A DNA stretch of 64,000 nucleotides from Halogeometricum limi (GTDB lineage: Archaea; Halobacteriota; Halobacteria; Halobacteriales; Haloferacaceae). The DNA lies in contig NZ_FOYS01000001.1 of NCBI RefSeq assembly GCF_900115785.1, positions 1 to 64,000 on the forward strand, in the 5' to 3' direction. Below the pieces are notes generated by a model, which was given only the letters and a program-made list of their open reading frames with translations, was not told where the DNA came from and searched no databases. A program made the position numbers and the translations under genes. Positions 45,380 through 47,211 of the stretch are shown piece after piece. Every line of letters begins with the position of its first letter. Within the stretch, counting starts at the first letter, position 1.

Positions 45380-46924
45380 ATGAACTTTTCTCGGGGTGCG
45401 ATAGCCGTCGCACTCGCCCTCCTCGTCGTCGTGGCGGGATGCGCGGGGACGCCGAACGCGACGGCGGACGGAGAACGGGGCGGGACGCAGACGACGGGAG
45501 AGTCGGCGTTCCAGTTCGAGACGCCGTCGAACGCGACGAACGCCACCGCGGCCGGTCCGAACGGGACGCTCGAAGTCCACTACATAAACGTCGGACAGTC
45601 CTCGAGCACGCTGCTCGTCGCGCCGAACAACGAGACGCTGCTGATAGACACGGGCGACTGGCGCGACGACGGACGAGACGTCCTCCGGTACCTCAGAGCG
45701 CAGAACGTCACCCGCATCGACCACCTCGTCACCTCGCACGCCGACGCCGACCACATCGGCGGGCACGCCGCCGTCATCGACTACTACGAGACCGAAGCCG
45801 AGGGCGTCGGCGCGGTGTACGACCCCGGTATCGCCTCGTCGTCGCAGACGTACGGTCGATACCTCGACGCGGTCGAACGACACGACGTGACGCTCTATCG
45901 CGCGGGCGCGAACGACTCGATTCCGTTCGGGAACGTCTCGACGCGGGTGCTCGCGCCGCCGGACGAACCCCTCGCGGGCGGCCAGCGAAACGAGAACAGT
46001 CTCGTCCTCGCCGTCGAACACGGCGGCCACGAGTTCCTCTTCCCCGGCGACGGCGAGACGGAGGCGGAGAGCTACCTCGTGGAACGGTACGGGTCGGCGC
46101 TCTCCGCGACGGCGCTCTCCGCGGGCCACCACGGGAGTCGGTCGAGCACGAGCGACGCCTTCCTGAACGCGACGGCCCCCCGCGTCGTCGTCGTCTCCAG
46201 CGCCTACGACTCGCAGTACGGCCACCCGCACGAGGAGACGTTACGCCGACTGGCGAACCGGTCGATTCCGACCTACTGGACCGCAACGCACGGCGACGTG
46301 GTACTGACGAGCGACGGGCGGAACCTGACCGTCTCGACGCAACGGGCGGCCCCGACGAACGCCTCGCGACTCCGGTCCGTCCCGGCCATCGGTCCCGACG
46401 CGAACGAGACGGTGACGGTCCGCGAGACGTTCGTCGTCACGAACGACTCGGAAGCGAACGAGTCGGCGGTGAACGAGTCGACGCCGAACGGGACGCAGAC
46501 GCCCGAGCGACGGACGGTGGCTCCGACGCCCACCGCGACTGCAACGCCTACCGCGACGGCGACGCCGACGCCGTCGCCGCCTCCCGCCGAGGGAACGCTC
46601 TCGCTCGTCCGCGTCCACGCGGACGCGTCGGGCGACGAGTGGGACAACCTCGACGACGAGTATCTCGTCTTCGAGAACACGGGCGACGCGGCACTCGACC
46701 TCTCGGGGTGGACCGTCAGCGACGAGGCGGGCCACACCTACCGCTTCGCCGACGGGTTCACGCTCGACGTCGGCGCGTCCGTGACGCTCCGCACGGGGAC
46801 TGGGGCGGACACCGCGACGGACCGCTACTGGGGGTCCGAGGCACCCGTCTGGAACAACGGCGGCGACACCGTCACCGTGACGACGGCCGAGGGCGAAGTC
46901 GTCGTGGAGGAGACCTACTCGTGA
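45380..46924 (+). CDS. Lipoprotein metallo-beta-lactamase (ComEC-type) with lamin-tail domain
   Basis: Exported 514-residue protein. The signal is a hydrophobic stretch ending in lipobox VAGC (18-21, lipid Cys21). A Thr/Asn-rich spacer follows, then an MBL hydrolase domain (about 65-330) with VGQSSSTLL, LLIDTGDW, TSHADADHIGGH and SAGHHGSRSSTSDAFL, as in the COG2333 domain of ComEC. A long Thr/Pro linker (TPTATATPTATATPTPSPP) joins a C-terminal lamin-tail (LTD) domain with DEYLVFENTGDAALDLSGW. This suggests a surface nuclease or phosphodiesterase. It overlaps the DUF3006 gene (GTGA). A weak TATA-like element is 26-27 bases upstream. Confidence 0.87.
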   Translation: MNFSRGAIAVALALLVVVAGCAGTPNATADGERGGTQTTGESAFQFETPSNATNATAAGPNGTLEVHYINVGQSSSTLLVAPNNETLLIDTGDWRDDGRDVLRYLRAQNVTRIDHLVTSHADADHIGGHAAVIDYYETEAEGVGAVYDPGIASSSQTYGRYLDAVERHDVTLYRAGANDSIPFGNVSTRVLAPPDEPLAGGQRNENSLVLAVEHGGHEFLFPGDGETEAESYLVERYGSALSATALSAGHHGSRSSTSDAFLNATAPRVVVVSSAYDSQYGHPHEETLRRLANRSIPTYWTATHGDVVLTSDGRNLTVSTQRAAPTNASRLRSVPAIGPDANETVTVRETFVVTNDSEANESAVNESTPNGTQTPERRTVAPTPTATATPTATATPTPSPPPAEGTLSLVRVHADASGDEWDNLDDEYLVFENTGDAALDLSGWTVSDEAGHTYRFADGFTLDVGASVTLRTGTGADTATDRYWGSEAPVWNNGGDTVTVTTAEGEVVVEETYS

Positions 46925-47211
46925 GTACACACACCTACACCGCGGTGGTAGACCGCTTCGAGGAGGAAGACGCCGTGCTACTCCTCGAAGCGGACGGCGA
47001 GACGGTCGACGAACTCGTCGTTCCGAGGCCGGTTCTCCCCGCCGACGGCCGCCACCGAGACGCGGTGTTCGCCGTCACCCTCGACGCCGACAGAACCGAA
47101 CTGGTCTACCGCCCCGACGAGACCGACCGCCGACGCGACGCGGCGCAGCGTCGCTTCGACAGACTGGCGAGACCGCTCGGCCGCAAAGACCGAGACGAAG
47201 ACGGCGAGTGA
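46921..47211 (+). CDS. DUF3006 domain protein
   Basis: Small 96-residue protein beginning with GTG in the GTGA overlap with the preceding stop. The core TYTAVVDRFEEEDAVLLLEADGE and DELVVPRPVLPADGRHRDAVFAVTL matches the DUF3006 pattern, a small beta-barrel protein often encoded next to ComEC-type MBL hydrolases. The C-terminal part is basic/acidic and helical. No export signal, so it would act inside the cell, opposite its lipoprotein partner. Function unknown. Confidence 0.8.
   Translation: MSTHTYTAVVDRFEEEDAVLLLEADGETVDELVVPRPVLPADGRHRDAVFAVTLDADRTELVYRPDETDRRRDAAQRRFDRLARPLGRKDRDEDGE

Follow-up and report, generated by a model that had tools for sequence, protein, structure and literature searches.

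What does a DUF3006 protein do beside an exported enzyme that resembles the nuclease domain of ComEC? The question is raised by a gene pair in the window, a 64,000-nucleotide stretch of DNA from Halogeometricum limi, in which a lipoprotein gene with a metallo-β-lactamase (MBL) domain and a lamin tail domain (LTD) runs into a gene for DUF3006. To our knowledge, DUF3006 is a common domain without known function, and the literature that we searched contained no paper on it by name. Our answer is tentative as a whole and falls a little short of probable: the pair would form one unit, consisting of an exported, lipid-anchored nuclease of the ComEC-MBL type and DUF3006, a small barrel protein of the cytosol, which would bind the nuclease and most likely inhibit it.

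ORF analysis verified the 4-nt GTGA overlap between the two genes (Table 1). In Pfam searches, the first product matched Lactamase_B at residues 74-275 (E = 1.1e-15) and LTD at residues 404-515 (E = 2e-20). Its leader runs into a lipobox (...ALLVVVAGC, Cys24) and has no twin arginine, so that Sec-type export is likely. The second gene scored 49.1 bits against PF11213 (DUF3006), above the curated cut-off of 32.3. The ORFs, the Pfam matches and Cys24 thus bear out the layout given in the initial annotation, an MBL protein with lipobox and LTD that overlaps a DUF3006 gene via GTGA. The best-matching named records in sequence searches were plasmids of Haloprofundus, Halobaculum, Natrinema and Halobacterium.

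Table 1. Positions in the window of the two overlapping genes and their features.
Feature	Coordinates	Strand	Details and basis
MBL-LTD lipoprotein gene	GTG 45371 (ATG alternative 45380) to TGA 46922-46924	+	517/514 aa; ORF analysis, Pfam
Lipoprotein signal peptide up to lipobox Cys, MNFSRGAIAVALALLVVVAGC	45380..45442	+	Cys24; sequence
ComEC-type metallo-β-lactamase domain	45560..46345	+	Pfam, profile and PDB matches
Motif II HADADH, residues 123-128	45737..45754	+	Relatives' alignment; other predicted ligands N207, D227, H254, H285
Thr/Pro-rich spacer, MBL to LTD	46500..46575	+	Sequence
Lamin tail domain (LTD)	46580..46918	+	Pfam
GTGA overlap, MBL stop codon and DUF3006 start codon	46921..46924	+	ORFs
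DUF3006 gene, signal peptide absent	46921..47211 (GTG 46921 to TGA 47211)	+	96 aa; domain 46942-47166; ORFs, Pfam

The closest match to the MBL domain in the PDB was the MBL domain of ComEC (9ic4, E = 2.2e-27). Across 35 archaeal and Bacillota relatives, seven metal ligands (H56, D60, H61, N134, D154, H180 and H211) are invariant. The same ligands are found in the window protein as H123, D127 and H128 of HADADH, N207, D227, H254 and H285, and the ComEC metal-ligand set (HxDxDH, motif III Asn, Asp, His and His) is present. Two residues set ComEC apart from Pce, the motif II Asp and the motif III Asn (PMC8579336). Both are found in the window protein; the signature of Pce and CbpE, a canonical HxHxDH with a motif III His, is absent from it, HADADH and Asn207 standing in these places. 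By homology to ComEC MBL domains, whose DNase activity in vitro depends on Mn (PMC8579336, PMC12455585), the window protein may likewise be a Mn-dependent DNase. Together with the lipobox, the ComEC-type domain and its retained ligands fit the surface nuclease or phosphodiesterase proposed at the outset, and we are fairly confident that the MBL protein is a surface nuclease.

We surveyed the neighborhood of DUF3006 in 393 Halobacteriota and 348 Bacillota genomes and called a DUF3006 match linked if an MBL match lay no more than 3 kb away; loci were located partly with a consensus-like query, which served only for locus finding. DUF3006 was present in 106 of the Halobacteriota genomes and MBL in 112 (110 among the matches listed). 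Linkage was found for 120 of 140 DUF3006 matches in this phylum, 118 of them on the same strand with MBL first. A single relative frame recurs in 99 of 119 pairs because the second gene starts on the stop codon of the first (ATGA, GTGA or TGATG), and a stop/start overlap (−1 or +2) was seen in about 40 of the 56 archaeal pairs whose junction could be read. Among the 190 Bacillota genomes with DUF3006, at least 88 of 114 compared matches were linked, always with both genes in one direction (MBL first in 61 and DUF3006 first in 27 among the matches listed). Of the listed DUF3006 genes from Bacillota, roughly one in four is unlinked, and some of these lie within folate or other operons; three of eight inspected ‘unlinked’ Bacillota loci do adjoin an MBL gene or an MBL remnant. 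Thus, the coupling to DUF3006 that had been supposed for archaea and Firmicutes held up in the adjacency survey that had been suggested for it, with most DUF3006 genes linked in both samples.

The two families also occur in the same genomes. Counts for both, MBL only, DUF3006 only and neither were 101/9/5/278 in the 393 archaeal genomes and, at E 1e-73, 163/20/27/138 in the 348 Bacillota; since the sampled genomes are mutually related, we claim no exact probability for this co-occurrence. By our own arithmetic, the chance that a random gene lies no more than 3 kb from a given one is about 0.2% in a 3 Mb genome, and chance adjacency is excluded by the linkage in both phyla and the per-genome co-occurrence. 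Tree distances of MBL and DUF3006 were correlated (0.72 over 139 pairs, compared with at most 0.06 after shuffling), in part through shared descent; in a paralog-swap test of co-inheritance, the differences were too small to count. No relatives of MBL or DUF3006 were confirmed in viral contigs. Tightly linked proteins that work in one place are often fused. No open frame held both DUF3006 and MBL among the DUF3006 matches listed for Halobacteriota and Bacillota, and two long open frames considered as fusions (in G000 and G380) were out-of-frame artifacts of high GC. The absence of fusions fits partners on opposite sides of the membrane or in transient contact.

Linkage goes together with an intact active site. 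The core ligands were intact in all 142 distinct linked MBLs, including 73 of 73 from archaea, compared with 15 of 22 unlinked archaeal MBLs; the remaining seven have no intact core. The archaeal difference (p = 1.5e-5) ignores relatedness, and because linked genes are related by descent, p-values of this kind overstate independence; the unlinked MBLs are also more divergent. In this set, DUF3006 is retained only beside active enzymes, which suggests that it takes part in handling their activity. Some MBLs with intact sites occur without DUF3006 (e.g. L228 and L229), and these, along with the unlinked Bacillota DUF3006 genes, indicate that the tie between DUF3006 and the nuclease is not a strict one.

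Judged by its sequence, DUF3006 adjacent to MBL is cytosolic. No convincing export signal was found on any MBL-linked DUF3006 in the fetched loci, archaeal or Bacillota, and the MBL lipobox is present in most haloarchaeal and clostridial relatives. A hydrophobic N-terminal extension occurs in five of the 199 DUF3006 ORFs at these loci, one of which (L149) rests on a doubtful TTG start. The other four (L187 2909-3577, L188 3955-4272, L189 3685-4026 and L190 3637-3981) are unlinked haloarchaeal genes with an N-terminal hydrophobic segment or a Tat-like leader, and they are the only convincing exported-looking DUF3006 proteins that we found. The topology in the initial annotation, with MBL outside and DUF3006 inside the cell, therefore suits the linked pairs, with a lipobox on one product and no leader on the other, but not these four unlinked proteins.

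In some Bacillota and archaeal loci, DUF3006 lies in the frame of MBL with one or more stops in between. We folded one such chain with AlphaFold, the MBL-linker-DUF3006 read-through of Bacillota locus L176 with TAG read as Gln, using an alignment of this chain and 13 more read-through pairs together with unpaired rows. The artificial chain, modeled without PAE and without a negative control, had a mean pLDDT of 93.8 and a pTM of 0.89, and pLDDT fell below 50 in the linker only. From the TM formula, we calculate an expected pTM of about 0.75 for a 66-residue DUF3006 placed randomly against a 252-residue MBL, so the observed value suggests a defined contact between the two. Direct binding of DUF3006 to MBL is thus predicted, and we regard it as moderately probable.

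In the mechanism that we favor, DUF3006 would be made through coupled translation, bind the MBL domain and most likely inhibit the nuclease inside the cell until its export. The LTD would hold the exported enzyme to the surface and to its substrate. There, the enzyme would degrade extracellular DNA, either to supply nutrient (phosphorus) or to turn over the matrix. We infer the inhibition, the substrate and the physiology, and inhibition in particular we regard as possible and still uncertain. Barnase-barstar (PMC8625414), Anabaena NucA-NuiA and Bacillus NucA-Nin (PMC5758888) likewise combine an exported enzyme with a small leaderless partner encoded by an adjoining gene. This arrangement is also found in the MBL-DUF3006 pair, where export is predicted from the leader, but the window pair differs from all three in the enzyme fold (MBL) and in the partner family, and inhibition is proposed here by analogy with them. 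If export is of the Sec type, the enzyme would cross the membrane unfolded, and an inhibitor would be less needed.

Instead of inhibiting the activity of the MBL lipoprotein, DUF3006 could assist its export or folding as a chaperone (holdase). Adjacency, coupling, predicted binding and a DUF3006 without export signal would fit such a role equally well. It nonetheless appears unlikely to us: core-defective enzymes never occur in the linked set, which suits an activity partner better than a folding-only partner, and related SNase-LTD lipoproteins do without DUF3006, as in Haloferax volcanii, which has LTD and SNase matches and no DUF3006 match.

We turn from the partner to the substrate of the putative nuclease. 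In homologous MBLs, the position of the LTD is taken by HHH_3 (ComEA-like), Excalibur, Ada Zn-binding or Ig-like domains in Pfam searches. HHH_3 is the DNA-binding element in ComEA, and HHH_3, Excalibur or Ada tails in the place of the LTD support a DNA substrate. The HHH_3 tails also argue against a surface phosphodiesterase for something other than DNA (a teichoic-acid-like polymer, lipid, cyclic nucleotide or RNA), comparable to Pce/CbpE with phosphorylcholine. Pce is indeed the second structural neighbor of the MBL domain, with a weak sequence match as well, but ComEC is nearer both by sequence and by structure, and the motif III Asn is of the ComEC type, making a non-DNA substrate improbable.

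The ComEC MBL domain alone barely binds DNA and gains several-fold in activity once it is tethered to its OB fold, ComEA or Sac7d (Stedman et al., PMC12455585), the DNA-binding domain of ComEA raising the nuclease rate (PMC12455585). Loss of the LTD lowers the in vitro activity of ExeM, an extracellular nuclease (PMC6085458), and the SNase-LTD protein Hvo_1477 is required for growth of Haloferax on DNA (PMC3929857). The window LTD fits a tail that holds the substrate or the surface. Hvo_1477 shares lipobox, nuclease domain and LTD with the window protein, but its catalytic domain is SNase instead of MBL; the SNase domain PF00565 is absent from the MBL-LTD protein in Pfam searches and present elsewhere in the genome of H. 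limi. This genome encodes a separate SNase-LTD lipoprotein of the Hvo_1477 type (L062 886-1836, G000:C6) and, in a frame of 796 aa (L067 361-2748, G000:C8 near 617 kb), two SNase domains together with a lipobox.

Other tails and LTD proteins were seen in passing. Three archaeal MBLs (L183, L184 and L185) carry tails of other kinds, which in L184 and L185 end in a Cys-rich, Excalibur-like DxDxDGxxCE segment on which Pfam is silent. The H. limi genome also has LTD and Baseplate_J in a single long frame (L064 1-3252, G000:C7 near 307 kb), an unusual combination that resembles a contractile-injection or phage-tail gene.

The predicted fold of DUF3006 is a small five-strand barrel with a C-terminal helix (pLDDT 86.8). 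Searched against the PDB, it gave no significant match (best E = 0.1), with the eIF5A N-domain and IF1-like barrels at high probability and poor E, and a DUF3006 sequence profile found nothing convincing there. A small barrel predicted to dock on MBL could correspond to the ComEC OB domain in the form of a separate protein, reaching the outside with MBL or by its own leader and helping the enzyme to hold DNA. Tethered OB and MBL domains of ComEC do cooperate (PMC12455585), and the hydrophobic leaders of the four unlinked haloarchaeal proteins are consistent with an outside role. On the other hand, the linked DUF3006 proteins of both phyla are leaderless, the MBL leaders have no conserved twin arginine, so that carriage by Tat would not be general, and the match to OB proteins falls short of significance. 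We consider this role more improbable still than a non-DNA substrate.

An envelope DNA-uptake (competence) module, as the initial annotation also envisaged, is hardly credible, since the ComEC homology that would favor it is confined to the MBL domain (107.6 bits against TIGR00361, below the cut-off of 190), haloarchaeal ‘ComA’ proteins have no pore (PMC3929857), and the pore domain PF03772 is absent from the MBL-LTD protein and from the H. limi genome in a profile search that detects it in 10 of 14 control genomes, which, within the sensitivity of that search, excludes ComEC uptake in H. limi.

We compared the pair with what has been described. MBL-LTD lipoproteins tied to DNA metabolism are already known, as is an annotated DUF3006 neighbor. 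Hlac_1867 of Halorubrum lacusprofundi, which is more abundant in biofilms and for which a role in DNA metabolism was proposed (PMC5118699), and ComA of NRC-1 (PMC3929857) have a lipobox, a COG2333 MBL domain and an LTD, and the window protein has all three. On pNRC200 of NRC-1, the MBL-LTD gene VNG_RS11775 is followed by the DUF3006 gene VNG_RS11770, as in the window; DUF3006 goes unmentioned in the published accounts of Hlac_1867 and NRC-1 ComA that we found. ComEC itself, the nearest relative in sequence and structure, shares the metal ligands and the motif II HxDxDH, whereas the window protein has neither OB domain nor membrane pore and adds a lipid anchor, a C-terminal LTD and a DUF3006 partner. 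A polyphosphate enzyme of H. volcanii was considered as a lead and set aside, since its abstract names no gene (PMC13318637).

What appears to be new is that DUF3006 accompanies a ComEC-type MBL in two domains of life, with an intact active site, without a leader and with predicted binding. DUF3006 is thereby tied to one enzyme type, its active site and a compartment, and its function becomes directly testable. The pair would also indicate that archaea have, besides Hvo_1477, a second and widespread kind of surface DNase. This bears on phosphorus recycling and brine biofilms, and the pair bears on the function of ComEC-type nuclease domains that lack a DNA pore. More speculatively, DUF3006 might be a new family of intracellular binders or inhibitors for secreted ComEC-type nucleases, common to archaea and Gram-positive bacteria, a generalization that we hold to be rather doubtful; if true, the MBL-DUF3006 pair would be a widespread analog of barnase-barstar on a different fold.

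Finally, several loci hold only one of the two partners. Seven archaeal MBL relatives that are unlinked to DUF3006 (L233, L234, L241 and L244-L247) have decayed metal sites and are probably non-enzymes. At L194 (3754-3936), just the last residues of MBL remain upstream of an intact DUF3006, probably the trace of a decayed MBL gene. In Clostridia, solo DUF3006 genes occur in unrelated operons. Two lie between genes that, by eye, are dihydropteroate-synthase-like and folK-like (L201 3916-4113 and L204 4124-4336), and four from Clostridium (L075 3992-4213, L084 3953-4213, L088 3986-4216 and L125 3983-4213) lie directly 3′ of a gene whose product, also assigned by eye, is a YhaM-like (OB + HD) nuclease.
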